Source: Picosynechococcus sp. PCC 7003 (GTDB taxonomy: Bacteria; Cyanobacteriota; Cyanobacteriia; Cyanobacteriales; MRBY01). Taken from it: a stretch of DNA of 64,000 nucleotides. The notes beneath the pieces are model-generated. The model had not been told where the DNA came from. It was given only the letters and a program-made list of their open reading frames with translations, and did no database searches. The stretch lies in assembly GCF_001693255.1 (NCBI RefSeq), contig NZ_CP016474.1, forward strand, positions 186,001-250,000, written 5' to 3'. A program made the translations under genes and the position numbers. Below are positions 3,798 through 35,491 of the stretch, one piece after another (positions within the stretch are counted from its first letter, which is position 1; each line of letters opens with the position of its first letter).

Positions 3798-4946
3798 CTA
3801 AAAGAGAACCTGTTTTAGGGCAGCCAACAGGAGTGTGACATTTTCCTTGCGGGCGTTATAACCCATCAAGCCAACGCGCCAAACCTTACCCGCCAGATCA
3901 CCGAGACCACCAGCGATTTCGATGTTGTACTCCTTCATCAACTGGGCAGCGACGGCGACACCATCAACTCCATCGGGAATGCGTACCGTGGTGAGGGTCG
4001 GCAGACGAATTTCACGATCCACGTGGCACTGGAGCCCCATATCTTCGAGGCCAGCCCAGAGGAGATCTGCTGCGTCCTGGTGCCGTTGCCAACGGGCTTC
4101 TAAGCCTTCCTCGGCGACGAGCATTAAGGCCTCCCGGAGCGCATAGTTCATATTCACCGGGGCCGTATGGTGATAAACCCGTTTGCCGGTACCCCAATAT
4201 TTGCTGACCATGGACATATCCAAATACCAGTTTTTCACCGGCGTTTTGCGATTGGTGAGAATATCCAAAGCTCTGGGGCTGAGGGTCAGGGGGCCAAGGC
4301 CAGGGGGGCAAGCAAGGGCTTTTTGAGTGCCGCTGTAGGCCAGATCAACGCCCCATTCATCGAGGAATAAGGGCACACCGCTTAAGCTGGTGACGGTATC
4401 GATCAAGAGCATGGTGCCGTGCTTTTCACAGACTTCCTTTACGCCTTCGAGGGGTTGTCTCGCGCCTGTGGAGGTTTCGGCGTGGACGAGGGCCAGAATT
4501 TTGGGTTCGTGTTGGGCGACGGCGGCAGAGATTTCCTCTAGGGTGAAAGCGTTACCCCAAGCGGTGGAAAAAGTATGCACCTCGGCGTCGTAGCGGCTAG
4601 CCATATCCACGAGGCGATGGCCGAAGTAACCATTGATGCCGATCAGGACTTTGTCGCCGGGTTCGACCATGTTGGCGAGGGTGGCTTCCATGGCGGCACT
4701 GCCAGTACCACTAACGGAAATTGTAAAGGGGTTTGCCGTCTGCCAGGTATAGCGGAGGAGATCCTTCACATCCTCCATAATTTCGAGGTATTTGGGATCG
4801 AGGTGACCGATGGGGGGCATCGCCAGGGCGGCTAAAACCCTGGGGTGGGCATTGGAGGGGCCAGGGCCAAGGAGCAGTCGGGGCGGTAGATCGAGTTGTT
4901 TTGCGGGTTTACGGTAGGTCTCTTGGATGGTGGGGCGATCGCTCAT
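3798..4946 (-). CDS. Class V aminotransferase (alanine/serine-glyoxylate type)
   Basis: This 382-residue PLP enzyme belongs to the alanine-glyoxylate/serine-glyoxylate aminotransferase group (class V). Visible markers are LLLGPGPSNAHPRV near the N-terminus, the phosphate-binding SGTGSAAMEA near residues 79-88, LLIDTVTSLSG with the PLP-pairing Asp near 183, and the Schiff-base lysine at about residue 209 in YSGTQKALACPPGL. In cyanobacteria the family takes part in photorespiratory glyoxylate-to-glycine conversion. A homologue was once called the soluble hydrogenase 42 kDa subunit, and I see no basis for a hydrogenase role here. The protein is full length with no signal peptide. The gene lies 34 bases upstream of (and in the same direction as) the DsbA-like gene. 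Confidence 0.9.
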   Translation of the reverse strand: MSDRPTIQETYRKPAKQLDLPPRLLLGPGPSNAHPRVLAALAMPPIGHLDPKYLEIMEDVKDLLRYTWQTANPFTISVSGTGSAAMEATLANMVEPGDKVLIGINGYFGHRLVDMASRYDAEVHTFSTAWGNAFTLEEISAAVAQHEPKILALVHAETSTGARQPLEGVKEVCEKHGTMLLIDTVTSLSGVPLFLDEWGVDLAYSGTQKALACPPGLGPLTLSPRALDILTNRKTPVKNWYLDMSMVSKYWGTGKRVYHHTAPVNMNYALREALMLVAEEGLEARWQRHQDAADLLWAGLEDMGLQCHVDREIRLPTLTTVRIPDGVDGVAVAAQLMKEYNIEIAGGLGDLAGKVWRVGLMGYNARKENVTLLLAALKQVLF

Positions 4947-23250: not shown

Positions 23251-24288
23251 ATGGATTTAACCTGTCCGATTCCCTTACAAAATACGTCCCACGTGCTGTT
23301 GGCCCATGGCGGTGGCGGCAAACTAATGCAGGATCTCATCGACAAAATGTTTGCCATGGCCTTTGGGAAATCCTGCACGAGCCATGATGCGGCCCAGTTA
23401 ACCATGCCAACCGGAGAATTGGCCTTGACGACGGATTCCTATGTGGTGCAGCCCCTCTTTTTTCCGGGGGGAGACATTGGCAAATTGGCAGTTTATGGCA
23501 CGGTAAACGATTTGACGATGGCGGGGGCGCGACCCTTGTATCTGAGTGTGGGTTTTATTTTGGAAGAAGGTTTACCCTTAGAAACCCTCTGGCGGATTGT
23601 GATTTCGATGCAACAGGCGGCCCAGGCAGTTGGGATACAGATCGTCACGGGGGATACGAAGGTGGTGGAACGGGGAAAAGGGGACGGCATTTTTATTAAT
23701 ACGTCGGGTGTTGGGGTGATTGGATCGGGGCTTAAGATTCAACCAAAGGCGATCGCCCCTGGGGATGCGATTTTAGTCAGTGGGGACTTGGGCCGCCATG
23801 GGATTGCGATCATGGCCCAGCGGGAGGGTTTAGCCTTTGAAACGACCATTGAAAGTGATTGTGCGCCCTTGGTGAATCCGGTGCAGGATTTATTATCTGC
23901 GGGGATTGGGGTGCATTGTCTGCGGGATGTGACGCGGGGCGGACTGGCGGCGGTGTTGAATGAGTTGGCGATCGCCTCTGGTTTCAACATGGAAGTGATC
24001 GAGCGGGACATTCCGGTGCGGGAGGATGTGCGGGGGGCCTGTGAAATTTTGGGATTTGATCCGTTGTACGTGGCGAATGAGGGGCGATTTGTGGCGTTTG
24101 TGCCGCCCGATCAAGCGGACAAAAGTTTAGAAATTTTGCGATCGCACCAAGCCAACGCCCAGATCATCGGTCAAGTCACCACCCCCCTCTCGCCTGACGA
24201 TATTGCCCCCGTCACCTTAAAAAACGCCTTTGGCATCGCGCGGATTTTAGACCGTTTAAGCGGTGAACAGTTGCCCCGTATTTGTTAG
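23251..24288 (+). CDS. hypE: Hydrogenase maturation protein HypE
   Basis: HypE dehydrates the carbamoyl group on its own C-terminal Cys to thiocyanate, giving CN ligands for the [NiFe] site. The C-terminus is [10 protein letters not shown], with the essential terminal Cys in the PRIC motif. The N-terminus has the AIRS/PurM-type [13 protein letters not shown] and then [18 protein letters not shown] and [11 protein letters not shown] placed the start at 23251 ([10 protein letters not shown]), giving 345 residues. An in-frame codon at 23182 would add 23 residues without similarity to the family. It precedes the hox operon by 346 bases and may have its own promoter. Confidence 0.95.
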
Positions 24289-24634
24289 AAAATCATTAAT
24301 AAAATGCGTCATATTCTTAATCTTAAATTAAGCAACAAAAAAATTGTTTTTCTAGGACATGGAAGCTCAACATTCAAGAATTGTTACATGATTTTTGGGA
24401 GAGAAAATTTCACCACTTAGGATGTAACTGTAAGCCAATGAATTTTTTGTAAAAATCTGTTGGGGTCAAGGGCAAAATCTTAAGATTTTCTATAAAAAAA
24501 GACCTCTTTGTCGTTTCATAAAAGGTTAGATTAGATTAATTTTGAGGCTTGTTTGCCTCTCCCTAGGCTGTTATTTCAACTATTTCAACGGGCGATCGCC
24601 CCCATTGTTTCTGCCGTAGTTTCAGGAAGTTACC
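24289..24634 (+). promoter_or_regulatory. Region upstream of the hox operon with weak promoter candidate
   Basis: These 346 bases hold no gene. They are AT-rich and include TTGTCG at 24508-24513 followed after 17 bases by TTAGAT, a weak sigma70-type promoter candidate about 100 bases before hoxE. A GCGATCGC (HIP1) lies just before the start. I see no clear terminator for hypE, so read-through into hox is possible. LexA and AbrB-type regulators act on hox promoters in other cyanobacteria, but I cannot identify their sites here. Confidence 0.35.
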
Positions 24635-28883: not shown

Positions 28884-30308
28884 ATGTCTAAAACAATTAT
28901 CATTGATCCCGTAACTCGCATCGAAGGACATGCCAAAATTTCCATTTACCTAGATGATCAAGGGGAAGTGAATGAAGCCCGTTTCCATGTGGGGGAATTT
29001 CGCGGTTTTGAGAAATTTTGTGAGGGTCGTCCCTTTTGGGAAATGCCCGCCTTAACGTCCCGAATCTGTGGCATTTGTCCTGTCAGTCACCTGATTGCTT
29101 CGTCCAAAACAGGGGATCAATTATTAGCTGTAAAAATTCCCGCAGCGGCAGAAAAATTGCGACGGATGATCAATCTTGCTCAGATTACCCAATCCCATGC
29201 CCTCAGTTTTTTCCACCTCAGTAGTCCCGATTTAATTTTCGGTTGGGACGGCGATCCAAAAACAAGAAATGTGTTTGGTTTAATTGCTGCCGATCCAGAT
29301 TTAGCACGGGGGGGAATCCGCCTGAGAAAGTTTGGACAGGACATTATTAAAATCCTTGGCAGCCAAAAAGTTCACCCCGCCTGGTCAATCCCCGGTGGTG
29401 TGCGATCGCCTTTGACTAAAGAAGGAAAAATCTACATTAAAAGGGGCTTGCCGGAGGCAAAAAATACCGTTAGAAATGCCCTGAGTTTGTTTAAAAAAAT
29501 CCTTGATTCCCATCAGGAAGAAGTGGAAGTCTTTGGCAATTTTCCGAGTCTTTATCTGGGCTTAGTGGGGGAGTCCGGTGCATGGGAACATTACAATGGC
29601 ATTTTGCGAATGATCGATAGCCGCGGCAATATTGTTGGCGATCGCCTTGATCCGAACAATTACCGTGAATTCCTTGGGGAAAAATTACAGGCAGATTCTT
29701 ATTTAAAATCCCCTTACTATAAGCTTTTTGGGGAGACGGGGGTTTACCGCGTTGGACCTTTGGCACGGTTAAATATTTGCGAACATTTTGGCACACCATT
29801 AGCCGATCAAGAACTCATTGAATATCGGCAACGGCACGGCAGAATCGTGCAGGCTTCCTTCGTTTATCATCATGCTAGATTAATTGAAATCCTTGGTTCC
29901 CTCGAAAGAATTGAGCGGATGATTGATGATCCAGATTTGTTTTCTAGCCGTTTACAAGCAGAGGCGGGAGTCAATCAAACCGAAGCCGTTGGCGTGAGTG
30001 AAGCACCACGAGGAACCCTATTTCACCATTATCAAGTGGATGAAAATGGACTACTTCAAAAAATCAATTTAGTGATTGCTACGGGACAAAACAATTTTGC
30101 GATTAACCGCACTGTAACCCAAATTGCCAAGCATTATATTCATGGTGAAAATGTCGCCGAAGGTATTTTAAATCGGGTGGAAGCTGGGGTAAGAAATTAC
30201 GATCCTTGCTTGAGTTGTTCAACCCATGCTGCCGGACAAATGCCGATGATTTTGCAGCTAATTTCCCCCGATGGTTCAATTGTTAAAGAAATTCGTCGTG
30301 ATAGTTAA
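28884..30308 (+). CDS. hoxH: Bidirectional hydrogenase large subunit HoxH
   Basis: HoxH (474 residues) holds the Ni-Fe active site that makes or oxidises H2. The N-terminal ligand motif is [10 protein letters not shown] near residues 60-69. The C-terminal motif is [13 protein letters not shown]. The tail after the ligand motif (about 24 residues, through [20 protein letters not shown]) is the peptide expected to be removed by HoxW once nickel is inserted. Its stop codon overlaps the hoxW start by one base (TAATG). The gap of 95 bases upstream contains only AT-rich sequence and an AGGAG ribosome-binding site. Confidence 0.97.
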
Positions 30309-30748
30309 TGAAACAGACTTTAATTATTGGCTATGGAAATACCTTACGTTCTGATGATGGGGCGGGACAAACCGTTGCTAAAGCTTTTTTTGATCAAGAA
30401 AATATAATGGCGATCGCCACCCATCAACTCACCCCAGAATTAGTGGAAGATTTAATCCAAGTGGAGCGCGTTTATTTTGTCGATGCTGCTCCCATTGATA
30501 CCGTCACCATTCAGTTGATTCAACTCAGAGATGATGAGCACAATTTTGGACATTTTATTGACCCCCAAAGTCTCTTAAATTTAGCAAAAAAAATCTATCA
30601 TTATGCCCCTGATGCCTACTTCGTTTTAATTCCGGCTCAAAATTTTGAATTGGGAGAAAGCTATTCTGAAATTACCCAAAATGCCATCCAAACAGCAATT
30701 CAGCTTTTACAGGAACAAGTCACACCATGCATGAAGTCGCAATTATGA
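30308..30748 (+). CDS. hoxW: HoxH-specific maturation endopeptidase HoxW
   Basis: HoxW (146 residues) belongs to the HycI/HybD hydrogenase endopeptidase family and cleaves the HoxH C-terminal peptide after nickel insertion. Marks are GYGNTLRSDDGAG near residues 8-20 (with the nickel-sensing acid), YFVDAAPID near 57-65 and a later His in YHYAPDAY. The gene starts on the last base of the hoxH stop codon. Its final codons run through a copy of the hypA start region (30725-30769), so the ancestral hoxW end overlapped hypA. The current tail is CMKSQL. Confidence 0.92.
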   Translation: MKQTLIIGYGNTLRSDDGAGQTVAKAFFDQENIMAIATHQLTPELVEDLIQVERVYFVDAAPIDTVTIQLIQLRDDEHNFGHFIDPQSLLNLAKKIYHYAPDAYFVLIPAQNFELGESYSEITQNAIQTAIQLLQEQVTPCMKSQL

Positions 30749-30769
30749 CAGAAACCGTGGCGATCGCCT
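30725..30769. repeat. Direct repeat, left copy: vestigial hypA start
   Basis: These 45 bases match 31458-31502 with one mismatch (T at 30744 against C). They encode MHEVAIMTETVAIA in the hypA frame and then diverge and stop. They also include the end of hoxW. Together with the right copy they flank the Uma2 gene. Confidence 0.93.
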
Positions 30770-30815
30770 TTCTATTTTTGATTTTATAATAGATAAAAAG
30801 CCTAAACTAAAAGTC

Positions 30816-31454
30816 ATGTTATTAGAACTCAAACGTATTCAAGTCCCCCCCGGTCAGCATATTATTTTACGGGATATTAGCTGGCAGGAATTCGAGCAAA
30901 TTTTAACAGACTTAGGCGAACATCGTGCGGCTCGGATTGCATATAAAGATCAATGTTTAGAGATTATGACTCCATTAGCTGAACATGAAGATAATAAAGA
31001 AATTATTAGTGATTTAATCAAAGTATTGCTGGAAGAACTCGACATGGAATTTCGTTGCTTAGGTTCTACCACATTTAGAAAAGAAACATCCCAAGGGCTA
31101 GAACCTGATCAATGTTTTTACATTAAGAATGAAGCAAAAATACGAGGTAAAAGTCGCATTGATTTAAGCATTGATCCTCCACCTGATCTTGCCCTTGAAA
31201 TTGACATCACATCTCGCACCTATCCTGATATTTATGCCGCATTAGGTGTCCCTGAATTATGGCGATTTGAGCGAAATACTTTACAAATTAATGTTTTAAT
31301 TAATGGTCAGTATCAAAGCATTAGTGATAGTCAAATTTTTGCGGGTTGGAATCTCATTCAAGTCATACCTCAATTTTTGGCAGATAGTAAAGTTGAAGGA
31401 CGCACCACTATTCTGCGAAAATTCCGTCGATGGGTACAACAGCAGAGGTCATAG
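30816..31454 (+). CDS. Uma2 family (DUF820) putative nuclease B, inserted between hoxW and hypA
   Basis: This 212-residue protein belongs to the Uma2/DUF820 family (PPGQHIILRDISWQEFEQIL at the start, PPPDLALEIDITS core). In this subtype the usual Lys before the helix is not evident: the segment reads SRTYPDIYAALGVPELWRF. A TATAAT at 30785-30790, 26 bases before the start, could be its own -10 box. It is AT-rich and lacks a GCGATCGC site. It lies between two 45-base copies of the hypA start and 5 bases before the working hypA, so it looks inserted into the operon. The frame is intact. Confidence 0.87.
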   Translation: MLLELKRIQVPPGQHIILRDISWQEFEQILTDLGEHRAARIAYKDQCLEIMTPLAEHEDNKEIISDLIKVLLEELDMEFRCLGSTTFRKETSQGLEPDQCFYIKNEAKIRGKSRIDLSIDPPPDLALEIDITSRTYPDIYAALGVPELWRFERNTLQINVLINGQYQSISDSQIFAGWNLIQVIPQFLADSKVEGRTTILRKFRRWVQQQRS

Positions 31455-31457
31455 TTG

Positions 31458-31502
31458 CCATGCATGAAGTCGCAATCATGACAGAAACCGTGGCGATCGC
31501 CT
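31458..31502. repeat. Direct repeat, right copy: functional hypA start
   Basis: Right-hand copy of the 45-base direct repeat at 30725-30769. It contains the true start of hypA at 31460. The repeat is much longer than an ordinary target-site duplication of an insertion sequence. Confidence 0.93.
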
Positions 31503-31801
31503 GTGCCTCAGCCAAACAACAAAACGCCACAAAAATTGTGGGTTTAACAATGCGAATTGGGGCAATGAGTGGGGTGGTGCCGGAAGCCCTGAGTTTTGCC
31601 TTTGAAGCGGTGGCGGGCGGAACCCTTGCCGAACAGGCTAAACTAATCATTGAAATGGTTCCTGTGACCTGTTATTGTGCCCAATGTGATCGCCCTTTTA
31701 CGCCACTTGATTTGTTTGATGAATGCCCTTTATGTGGCAATTTAAGTCAACAAATTCTGAGTGGCAAAGAAGTCGAATTAAAATCCTTAGAGGTGATTTA
31801 A
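31460..31801 (+). CDS. hypA: Hydrogenase nickel-insertion protein HypA
   Basis: HypA (113 residues) passes nickel to the hydrogenase large subunit together with HypB. The start at 31460 gives the conserved MHE with His2 as nickel ligand. An upstream in-frame ATG at 31430 lies inside the Uma2 gene and is rejected. The zinc site is formed by Cys in VTCYCAQCDRPF and CPLCGN. The start context now depends on an AGAGG within the 3' end of the Uma2 gene (31445-31449), not on the ancestral hoxW overlap. hypB follows after 3 bases. Confidence 0.95.
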   Translation: MHEVAIMTETVAIACASAKQQNATKIVGLTMRIGAMSGVVPEALSFAFEAVAGGTLAEQAKLIIEMVPVTCYCAQCDRPFTPLDLFDECPLCGNLSQQILSGKEVELKSLEVI

Positions 31802-32633: not shown

Positions 32634-34907
32634 GTGAAACAACGGTTACATCTAGAGATTCAAGGTACGGTGCAGGGGGTTGGTTTTCGTCCCTTTGTTT
32701 ATCAATTAGCCACAGCACTCAATTTATGCGGTTGGGTGAATAACTCCGCTGCGGGGGTGACAATTGAGGTGGAAGGAGGGCGATCGCCACTTCATTTATT
32801 TCTCGAAAAACTACAAACAGAGTTGCCATCCAATGCAAAAATTGATGCTTTAAAATATCAATATTTAGAGCCAGTTAATTTTAAAAATTTTCAAATTCGT
32901 GCCAGTCAAACTGGAGAAAAAATTGCCGTTGTTTTACCTGATTTAGCTACCTGTTCTGAATGCATTGCAGAAATTTTCAATCCTCAAAATCGCCGTTATC
33001 AATACCCTTTTACGAACTGCACCCATTGCGGCCCCCGCTACAGCATTATTGAAACCCTGCCCTACGATCGCCCCTTAACCTCAATGGCGGATTTTTCGAT
33101 GTGCACAGACTGTCAACGGGAATATGAAGACCCCGGCGATCGCCGTTTCCATGCCCAACCGAATGCCTGCCCAAACTGTGGGCCTCAATTAAACTTTTTG
33201 ACGGCTTTTAAAACTAATTTTGAGCACCAAAATCCGTTAACATTGGCGATTCAATATCTCTGTGATGGCAAAATTCTGGCATTAAAAGGTTTAGGGGGAT
33301 TTCAATTATTAACGGATGCTAGAAATTTTCAGGCGGTGCAACAACTGCGCGATCGCAAACAACGACCCGACAAACCGTTAGCAGTAATGTATCCCGATTT
33401 GATTTCCGTCAAAAACGATTGCTTGCTTTCAAAATTAGAAGAAAAATGCCTGAATTCACAAGCCAGTCCCATTGTTTTATTACAGAAAAGAGAAACCTTT
33501 AAATTAGCTAAAAATGTTGCGCCAAATAATCCTCATTTAGGGGTAATGTTGCCCTATACGCCATTACATCATTTGCTATTAAATGCGCTTAATTTTCCGG
33601 TGGTGGCAACCAGTGGCAACCTCAGTGATGAACCCATTTGCATTGATGAAACGGAAGCATTAGCAAGGCTTAAAAATATTGCGGATGGATTCTTAATTCA
33701 TAATCGCCGCATTCTTCGTCCTGTGGATGATTCAGTAGTGCGAGTGATGCATAATACACCTGTGATCTTGCGGCGGGCAAGGGGCTATGCACCGGAACCC
33801 ATTACCTTAAAACAACCCCTCTCAAAAAATATTTTGGCAATGGGGGGACATCTAAAAAATACGGTGGCGATCGCCCAAAGAGATCGTATTTTTTTAAGTC
33901 AACATATTGGCGATTTGTCTAATCAATTAACGCTGCAAGCGATGGAACAAACCTTGCAAAAATTAAGCCAAATTTATGACTTTGAACCTGATATTCTTAC
34001 CTGTGATTTACATCCTGACTATCTCTCTAGCCAATACGCTAAAAATCTTGCCCAAACACTCAATATTCCTCTAGTGCCAGTGCAACATCACCATGCTCAC
34101 ATCTATGCCTGCATGGCTGAACATCAGCTTGAATTTCCAGTGTTAGGGGTGGCTTGGGATGGTACGGGTTATGGTGCAGATGGCACAATTTGGGGCGGTG
34201 AATTTTTCTTTGTTGATAAGGGAAAAAATCAGCGGATTGCTTACCTTAAACCCTTCCCTCTCATTGGTGGCGATCAAGCGAATAAAGAGCCGCGTCGCAG
34301 TGCCTTAGGCTTATTATCCCAATGGTGGACATTAGAGGAATTAAGCTATTTAAATGTCCTAGGGTTAAAGGCTTTTTCGGAGCAGGAATTACAGTTAATT
34401 AAAATAATGTTAAAACGGAAAATTAATACGCCTTTAACGTCTAGTGTAGGACGGCTATTTGATGCGATCGCCTCTATTTTAGGGTTATACCAAAGGGTAA
34501 CGTTTGAAGGGCAGGGGGCAATGGCACTAGAATTTTTAATTGGTGATCTAAAAACAAATGAATTCTATGGTGTTGACTGGGAAGAAAAAGATGATATTTC
34601 AACGATTAATGTACAGCCAATGGTGAAAGCTATCCTTGAGGATTTAGCATTAAATATGGGTGGTGATTTAATTGCAGCAAAATTTCACAACTCGCTTGTT
34701 GAACTGATTGTAACAGTGGCTAAAAAATCGAAACTAAAACAGGTTATTTTGGCGGGGGGCTGTTTTCAAAATAAATATCTGTTGGAAAGGGCAATTCAAC
34801 GCTTAACGATGGAGGATTTCCAGGTGTTTTATCCCCAAAAGTTTCCGCCCAATGATGGGGCGATCGCCTTAGGTCAAGTCGTGGCAGTAGCACAACAATT
34901 TTTTTAA
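32634..34907 (+). CDS. hypF: Carbamoyltransferase HypF
   Basis: HypF (757 residues) makes carbamoyl-AMP from carbamoyl phosphate and transfers the carbamoyl group to HypE. Domains in order are: acylphosphatase (GTVQGVGFRPFVYQLA near 11-26), a double zinc finger (CSECIAEIF, CTHCGPRYS, CTDCQREYE, CPNCGP), a YrdC-like domain (about 200-380), and a Kae1-like C-terminal domain with HHHAHIYACMAEH and AWDGTGYGADG. The start is GTG, 8 bases after hypB. Its last 4 bases overlap the convergent Uma2 gene C. AT-rich composition continues through the gene. Confidence 0.95.
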   Translation: MKQRLHLEIQGTVQGVGFRPFVYQLATALNLCGWVNNSAAGVTIEVEGGRSPLHLFLEKLQTELPSNAKIDALKYQYLEPVNFKNFQIRASQTGEKIAVVLPDLATCSECIAEIFNPQNRRYQYPFTNCTHCGPRYSIIETLPYDRPLTSMADFSMCTDCQREYEDPGDRRFHAQPNACPNCGPQLNFLTAFKTNFEHQNPLTLAIQYLCDGKILALKGLGGFQLLTDARNFQAVQQLRDRKQRPDKPLAVMYPDLISVKNDCLLSKLEEKCLNSQASPIVLLQKRETFKLAKNVAPNNPHLGVMLPYTPLHHLLLNALNFPVVATSGNLSDEPICIDETEALARLKNIADGFLIHNRRILRPVDDSVVRVMHNTPVILRRARGYAPEPITLKQPLSKNILAMGGHLKNTVAIAQRDRIFLSQHIGDLSNQLTLQAMEQTLQKLSQIYDFEPDILTCDLHPDYLSSQYAKNLAQTLNIPLVPVQHHHAHIYACMAEHQLEFPVLGVAWDGTGYGADGTIWGGEFFFVDKGKNQRIAYLKPFPLIGGDQANKEPRRSALGLLSQWWTLEELSYLNVLGLKAFSEQELQLIKIMLKRKINTPLTSSVGRLFDAIASILGLYQRVTFEGQGAMALEFLIGDLKTNEFYGVDWEEKDDISTINVQPMVKAILEDLALNMGGDLIAAKFHNSLVELIVTVAKKSKLKQVILAGGCFQNKYLLERAIQRLTMEDFQVFYPQKFPPNDGAIALGQVVAVAQQFF

Positions 34908-35491
34908 ATTTTTGCCTTGTTAAAAATCTCATCCATTGTGAACCTAAGCTGGGGAAACAGATCATCCTCAATGACTTGGTTCCCGCGATAGGTCATGGGA
35001 GGAGTATTGGGGGCGAAAACAGTTAAGCTTCGTTCTTGGTCACTCACGAGCCAGACCCGCTTGATCTCTGCCGCTAGGTAATCAAGGGCTTTTTGGGTCA
35101 TCTCTTCAAAGGACTGACCGGGGGACAAAATTTCGACCACTAACTCTGGAGGCACTGGACAAGGGCCATTACTAAGATCGAGGTCAGATAGTTTAGCATC
35201 GGAAATATAAGTCACATCAGGCACCGGACACCAATCTACGCCACGGCGCTGTAAGGCGATCGCCCATTCAGGATAGGCATCTCCCACTAGGAGTGAATCA
35301 TCATTATTACCCCAAGCCGACAACATTATGAGAAAAGTACGTTGTAAACAGGAATGAATTCGTTTTGGTGACATTTTCGGAATAGCTTGGCCGTCTTGTA
35401 GCTCATAGGTAATATCCCCTTCTGGTAAATTCAAAAACTCCTGAAGGGTTAGGCTTTGGAGAGAATTAGTCAGGATTGTACTCATGGCCAT
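34904..35491 (-). CDS. Uma2 family (DUF820) putative nuclease C, antisense in the hyp operon
   Basis: This 195-residue Uma2/DUF820 protein has the canonical core: VPDVTYISD (Asp), PPELVVEILSPGQSFEEMT (Glu), a Lys in TQKALDYLAAEIKRVWLVSD. It lies between hypF and hypC on the opposite strand and overlaps the hypF stop by 4 bases. It therefore breaks the hyp operon and must leave hypC and hypD with their own promoter or dependent on read-through. A second start two codons inside (MSTILTN) is possible. The frame is intact and no flanking repeat is seen at this copy. Confidence 0.87.
   Translation of the reverse strand: MAMSTILTNSLQSLTLQEFLNLPEGDITYELQDGQAIPKMSPKRIHSCLQRTFLIMLSAWGNNDDSLLVGDAYPEWAIALQRRGVDWCPVPDVTYISDAKLSDLDLSNGPCPVPPELVVEILSPGQSFEEMTQKALDYLAAEIKRVWLVSDQERSLTVFAPNTPPMTYRGNQVIEDDLFPQLRFTMDEIFNKAKI

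Follow-up and report, generated by a model that had tools for sequence, protein, structure and literature searches.

Genes of the Uma2 family have been inserted recurrently in the cyanobacterial genus Picosynechococcus, as judged from comparisons of related genomes, with long duplications of the target that leave the reading frames of the neighboring genes intact. With moderate confidence, we take HIP1-assisted illegitimate recombination to be the most likely route. The junction between hoxW and hypA in Picosynechococcus sp. PCC 7003 is one example of this broader, countable pattern; it lies in a stretch of 64,000 nt, here called the window, whose coordinates are used throughout. Our genus sample comprised six genomes, from G000 (the window strain itself) to G005, with G002 being Picosynechococcus sp. 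PCC 7117.

A sequence-only reading of the window had described a 45-base repeat with one mismatch, the copies of which hold the end of hoxW and the start of hypA and flank an intact Uma2-family gene; all of this was borne out (Table 1). The copies start 733 nt apart, and the repeat scores 42, compared with maxima of 23 in 1,500 random window pairs and 28 in 266 control open reading frames (ORFs). The hoxW stop codon (30746-30748) and a remnant hypA ATG, which reads into a TAA at 30787-30789, are in copy 1, and copy 2 contains the start of the intact HypA frame. With the hoxW end in copy 1 and the hypA start in copy 2, the ORFs of both neighbors are intact. HIP1 (GGCGATCGCC) followed by one T ends both copies. 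Their sole mismatch is a T in copy 1 and a C in copy 2; T also stands in the single copy of G002 and in the copy at hypA in G001, which makes the C of copy 2 derived. According to the ORF list, the insert encodes Uma2 alone, hence no methyltransferase, and no transposase; a search for inverted pairs of at least 12 nt with arms at the insert ends (30770 and 31457) found none. The hoxW product had no Pfam match at 0.001. We rejected the notion that the repeat is an assembly artifact or a chance match, the probability of which we regard as negligible: no point in its support was found, the same gene order recurs in another genome (G001), and the score is far beyond the chance level.

Table 1. Features of the hoxW/hypA junction and the second Uma2 gene of the operon (window positions)
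Feature	Position	Strand	Basis and remarks
hoxW, hydrogenase maturation protease	30308..30748	+	TIGR00072, 58.1 bits (cut-off 47.45); 3' end within repeat copy 1
Direct repeat copy 1, hoxW 3' end and remnant hypA start	30725..30769	+	44/45 identical to copy 2; single copy in G002
Remnant hypA frame, 20 codons and stop	30727..30789	+	Read from sequence
HIP1 (GGCGATCGCC), left repeat/insert junction	30759..30768	.	Sequence; at near-equal distance before Uma2 in G001; present in G002 single copy
Inserted unit, 688 nt (46 nt upstream, Uma2 ORF, 3 nt)	30770..31457	+	Absent from G002; insert size
TATAAT, putative -10 element of Uma2 gene	30785..30790	+	Sequence only
Uma2-family gene, putative restriction endonuclease	30816..31454	+	PF05685, 69 bits (cut-off 27), E 4.5e-19
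Putative SD-like AGAGG inside Uma2	31444-31448	.	Read from sequence
Direct repeat copy 2, start of intact hypA	31458..31502	+	44/45 identical to copy 1
hypA	31460..31801	+	TIGR00100, 105.7 bits (cut-off 88.1; HypA equivalog); PF01155
HIP1 in copy 2, within hypA coding sequence	31492..31501	.	Sequence
Second Uma2 gene, hypF/hypC gap	34904..35491	-	PF05685, 97.4 bits

In three of the six genus genomes, hoxW was found. In PCC 7117, hoxW overlaps hypA, the repeat is present in one copy, and there is no Uma2 gene; a construct of window flank, one copy, and flank aligned with this genome over 544 nt, ungapped, at 84% identity. Not all relatives carry Uma2 at this junction, and the earlier proposal that Uma2 entered an operon in which hoxW and hypA overlapped is supported by this empty-site strain. 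The outgroups agree. Among 27 cyanobacterial hypA loci (L033-L059, the best nongenus matches among 243 genomes searched), 23 have hoxW upstream of hypA, with 12 to 314 nt between match ends, a gap too short to hold a Uma2 gene; in the other four, hoxW was not found upstream of hypA. The outgroups indicate that the hoxW-hypA order without Uma2 is ancestral; Uma2 was inserted at the junction. A search of genome contigs with a single HoxW sequence gave no match, another search matched PCC 7117 and Gloeocapsopsis only, and a plasmid search gave no match.

In G001, a more distant congener, hoxW and hypA are likewise separated by a Uma2 gene. Copy 1 has decayed there, the Uma2 stop is followed by the hypA ATG after five bases as in the window, and HIP1 precedes Uma2 at nearly the same distance. 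The Uma2 genes of the window and of G001 are sisters (77% identity; support of 100/99 in a tree of 35), which rules out a recent insertion confined to the window strain. In comparisons of this region and of the surroundings of other Uma2 loci, identity is mostly 85 to 94% between G000 and G002 and mostly 70 to 84% between G001 and either of them. The insertion probably predates the split between G000 and G001, and the empty state of PCC 7117 is probably secondary, the result of a later loss or allele replacement. For an insertion of that age, the near-perfect copy 1 of the window is unexpected, the DNA being partly noncoding; it may reflect gene conversion between the two copies. The Uma2 site at an M42-type peptidase gene is a mirror image, with a repeat of 45/46 in G001 and remnants of 19 nt in G002 and 13 nt in G000.

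The second Uma2 gene of the operon is likewise common to G000 and G001 and absent from G002; no long repeat flanking it was found. At positions 34068-34900, the hypF 3' end, and at about 23800-24550, G002 is about equally distant from G000 and G001 (60 to 72%), and these two blocks differ from most of the operon in this respect. Such a pattern suggests recombination, at the hypF 3' end right beside the second Uma2 gene. Given the hypF 3'-end distances, a single event in which an empty allele replaced the stretch from hoxW to hypC could account for both Uma2 absences in PCC 7117; two deletions could also have caused them.

Comparison of the ends of other Uma2 genes, which the sequence-only reading had called for, revealed that flanking duplications recur. 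Direct repeats were sought within 300-nt flanks. In a first scan, 3 of 65 Uma2 genes (G000-G002) had near-perfect repeats of 45 to 48 nt, with a top score of 19 among 79 control ORFs; the uniform duplication length of ∼45 nt that these first cases suggested was dropped after longer repeats appeared. In a wider set, scores of at least 24 were reached by 19 of 215 Uma2 genes versus 0 of 1,500 random windows. In the final set, strong flanking repeats were present at 14 of 164 genus Uma2 genes versus 2 of 266 control ORFs (Fisher test, 5e-5) and, at a score of at least 30, at 13 versus none; these tests used the unpruned genus counts and control ORFs, pooled from genus and other loci, that are ordinary ORFs and not known accessory insertions.

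Hand pruning, decided on after the repeats had been seen, left 12 genus cases with repeats of 34 to 174 nt. Seven of the 19 were dropped: three in which a copy overlaps the Uma2 start in a tandem-like manner (L177, L179, and L017), two with tandem Uma2 neighbors (L191 and L192), and two that look like dispersed repeats (L204 and L178). L174 and L168 were retained despite an adjoining second Uma2 gene. The inserts of the 12 cases measure 599 to 784 bp and hold one Uma2 ORF, preceded by 14 to 151 nt and followed by -3 to 50 nt; this uniform size is partly a product of the search, because repeats were sought in 300-nt flanks only. The repeats are often the ends of neighboring genes, as with hoxW/hypA; judging by their translations, further such neighbors encode ribonuclease Z, the M42-type peptidase, RimI, an oligopeptidase, and a histidine kinase. 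The two rimI-site copies match at just 140 of 166 positions (84%). A wider spacing was seen at L125 (G002:C1:1610921-1621430), where the copies of a 62-nt direct repeat, at 3991-4052 and again at +1634, enclose Uma2 together with other sequence.

A single-copy empty site could be aligned on both flanks in four of the eight repeat-flanked cases that were tested (L114, L174, L155, and L129 were left out): hypA (empty in G002), rnz (G000 and G002), rimI (G003 and G004, with small gaps and 73 to 74% identity), and the L176 site (88% in G004, with one contiguous match in G005 too). At all four, what sets the filled allele apart from the empty one is a single Uma2 unit plus a second copy of the repeat. 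The predicted empty site matched the left flank and copy only for L241, L255, and L006 and the right side only for L168. Polarity is based on outgroups for hypA and on two empty genomes versus one filled genome for rimI and L176; at rnz, it is the more distant genome that is filled, so polarity could run either way. The same structure would arise exactly from recombination between the single copy of an empty chromosome and an excised circle that carries Uma2 with one copy of the repeat, and reversal of this Campbell-type event would yield the arrangement of G002. However, it would account for the spread of an existing allele and not for the first duplication, and we consider it very unlikely as the explanation. 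Of eight further Uma2 loci chosen, five were aligned in six pairs (L093, L094, and L125 were left out). No clean joint appeared in the alignments of L098 and of L096 or in that of L140 versus G001. L130 has a clean empty site in G000 with neither joint at HIP1, L134 has HIP1 at one joint only, and L140 versus G000 has HIP1 at one joint, exactly where G000 and G002 diverge.

HIP1 marks an end of 9 of the 12 pruned repeats (null mean, 0.34), the exceptions being L119, L176, and L155. Among the 24 repeat ends of these 12 hand-picked cases, 10 have the HIP1 core ≤6 nt away in both copies, about 28 times the null, which was drawn from random segments around the same genes (mean, 0.35; 0 of 20,000 draws reached 10). 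Two of the seven dropped repeats also bear on this count: that of L192 starts HIP1-like, and that of L177, as redefined, starts with HIP1. The motif is enriched near Uma2 genes of the genus in general. Of 137 Uma2 genes, 52 have it between -93 and -44 relative to the start, versus 62 of 541 control ORFs. It lies just after the stop (-3 to +26, within 26 nt) in 38 versus 29 and on both sides in 17 versus 8; the windows were set after the profiles had been seen. The 137 genes exclude G002, which avoids double-counting of orthologs, and still contain orthologs shared by G000/G001 and by G003-G005; the control ORFs include G002. In G003-G005 alone (n = 100), 41 genes have HIP1 upstream, 32 downstream, and 14 on both sides. 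The HIP1 near -75 could also be a promoter-related feature inherited with the gene. In L005 and L218 (G004) and L006 (G005), HIP1 directly precedes the Uma2 ATG (GCGATCGCc-ATG), and L005 and L218 have a further HIP1 near -75.

Outside the genus, HIP1 is rare near Uma2 genes (5 upstream and 3 downstream among 94 genes of other families), so the HIP1 pattern has been demonstrated solely for this genus. Repeats with scores of at least 24 are as frequent there as in the genus (9 of 94, unpruned); by eye, they look dispersed (L316, L308, L337, L331, and L204), form tandem arrays (L191 and L192), or overlap the gene start (L017 and L179). At the first five loci, copies of 38 to 156 nt resembling dispersed intergenic repeats lie on both sides of Uma2. 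It is possible that these five are the HIP1-free counterpart of the genus pattern. The other-family loci are a nonrandom sample of best-scoring matches (L179-L208), matches to the window Uma2 (L007-L020), and isolated genes picked among the matches listed (L299-L338); in G003 and G005, part of the Uma2 genes was sampled. Uma2 matches number 14 to 56 per genome in the genus and 20 to 105 in the eight other genomes searched.

A single-gene Uma2 unit of ∼0.69 kb thus entered the overlapping hoxW/hypA junction, and 45 nt of the target were duplicated. These data led us to infer the following route. A HIP1 shared by the target and the edge of the incoming Uma2 fragment would provide 10 bp of microhomology for one joint, and the other joint would form upstream, either on the sister copy of the chromosome or following a template switch, so that the stretch between them is duplicated. 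Selection would keep the events that spare both neighbors, favoring duplications over deletions. Recombination between the two repeat copies would remove Uma2 cleanly, and PCC 7117 may represent such a removal or may have received an empty allele. Counter to the HIP1 step, both L130 joints lie off HIP1, and other-family repeats are as frequent where HIP1 is rare. No donor sequence was found, so homology of a joint with the incoming fragment was not seen directly.

It is possible, though we doubt it, that no special route is involved: any DNA would insert with a duplicated target, events that spare the neighbors would survive, and Uma2 and HIP1 would merely be common. The hypA, rnz, and M42-peptidase cases each retain one complete copy of the neighboring gene end, as expected on that account, and a divergence at HIP1 also fits it. 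L360 (G000:C1:1572000-1575200) and L140 (G002) have a common left flank up to HIP1 and different cargo after it: judging by the translations, G000 has a toxin-antitoxin-like nucleotidyltransferase/HEPN-like pair together with further genes, and G002 has Uma2. In 701 kb of G000-G002, we found five direct-repeat pairs (offset, 250 to 2,500; score of at least 28), one of which is unlinked to Uma2, as are the repeats of the 2 of 266 control ORFs. On the other hand, four of the five pairs enclose Uma2, albeit in stretches that for the most part had been selected around Uma2 genes; none of the 266 control ORFs, which are ordinary ORFs and not known accessory insertions, reaches a score of 30; and HIP1 at repeat ends far exceeds its null.

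Homing-like copying, in which the Uma2 nuclease cuts the empty site and repair copies the gene in, the duplication stemming from staggered cuts or from offset strand invasion, has in its favor that Pfam names Uma2 a putative restriction endonuclease and that close relatives of one Uma2 gene occupy different loci. Relatives of the window Uma2 (68 to 73% identity) adjoin the 3' end of a histidine kinase gene in G004 (L005) and G005 (L006), the target end being duplicated in the latter, and a chromate-transporter-like gene in G003 (L004); these neighbors were named by reading. Yet the targets have no sequence in common beyond HIP1, which is itself missing at the ends of 3 of 12 repeats, the repeat length varies from 34 to 174 nt, and nothing ties the Uma2 protein to its own movement; we regard this explanation as improbable. 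The sequence-only reading had left recombination-based insertion, tandem duplication, and homing-like repair side by side. Recombination-based insertion is now favored because of the HIP1 junctions; homing is possible but improbable. A bolder version of HIP1-assisted recombination, which we think unlikely, would have HIP1 delimit a mobile cassette of one gene (HIP1 - promoter - Uma2 - HIP1) and serve as the recombination site by which Uma2 proliferated in HIP1-rich cyanobacteria; the Uma2 nuclease might itself make the first cut at or near HIP1.

Insertion with long target duplication has been described for restriction-modification genes of Helicobacter pylori (Nobusato et al. 2000; PMC1643837, PMC3031569). 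As there, long duplications of variable length flank genes and were recognized by comparing related genomes; the cargo in the H. pylori cases reported in these sources is often restriction-modification genes, whereas here it is one lone Uma2 gene, a putative restriction endonuclease. Unlike the H. pylori system, ours has a cyanobacterial host and frequent HIP1 at repeat ends. Synechococcus PCC 7002 is now placed in Picosynechococcus. HIP1 has been linked to recombination on plasmids of that strain (Akiyama 1998) and to excision (Robinson 1997), as summarized in PMC4390886, and HIP1 acts as a recombination junction there and probably here; those reports, as described in that source, concern plasmids and cloned sequences, whereas the products seen here are gene insertions that arose naturally in chromosomes. 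DUF820/Uma2 and toxin-antitoxin genes have been noted in or beside hox operons, with operon stabilization proposed (PMC4963859, section 2.4.2), and ORF17 of Lyngbya majuscula is listed after hoxW (PMC2674450); their passages on these operons record the presence of the genes, as we do, and describe no target duplication or empty site. Like insertion sequences and MITEs, the insert at hoxW/hypA is flanked by direct target repeats; unlike them, it has no transposase ORF and no terminal inverted repeats of at least 12 nt, and the target repeats of the genus cases are far longer and variable (34 to 174 nt) instead of short and fixed. Unlike with homing endonuclease genes, one conserved recognition site is missing, since the targets differ and HIP1 lies at an end of 9 of 12 repeats only.

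Our literature search, which included few subscription journals, found nothing joining Uma2 to target duplication or to HIP1 and no described means of Uma2 spread; expansion of Uma2 has been noted for Thermosynechococcus (PMC9403480). On our best reading, insertion with long target duplication, a process known from restriction-modification genes, here concerns lone Uma2 genes and frequently has HIP1 at the junction. HIP1 is an abundant and little-known cyanobacterial palindrome (PMC4390886). The duplications described here give the highly multiplied Uma2 genes of cyanobacteria an insertion footprint that lends itself to counting in any genome; within Picosynechococcus, the footprint is tied to HIP1.
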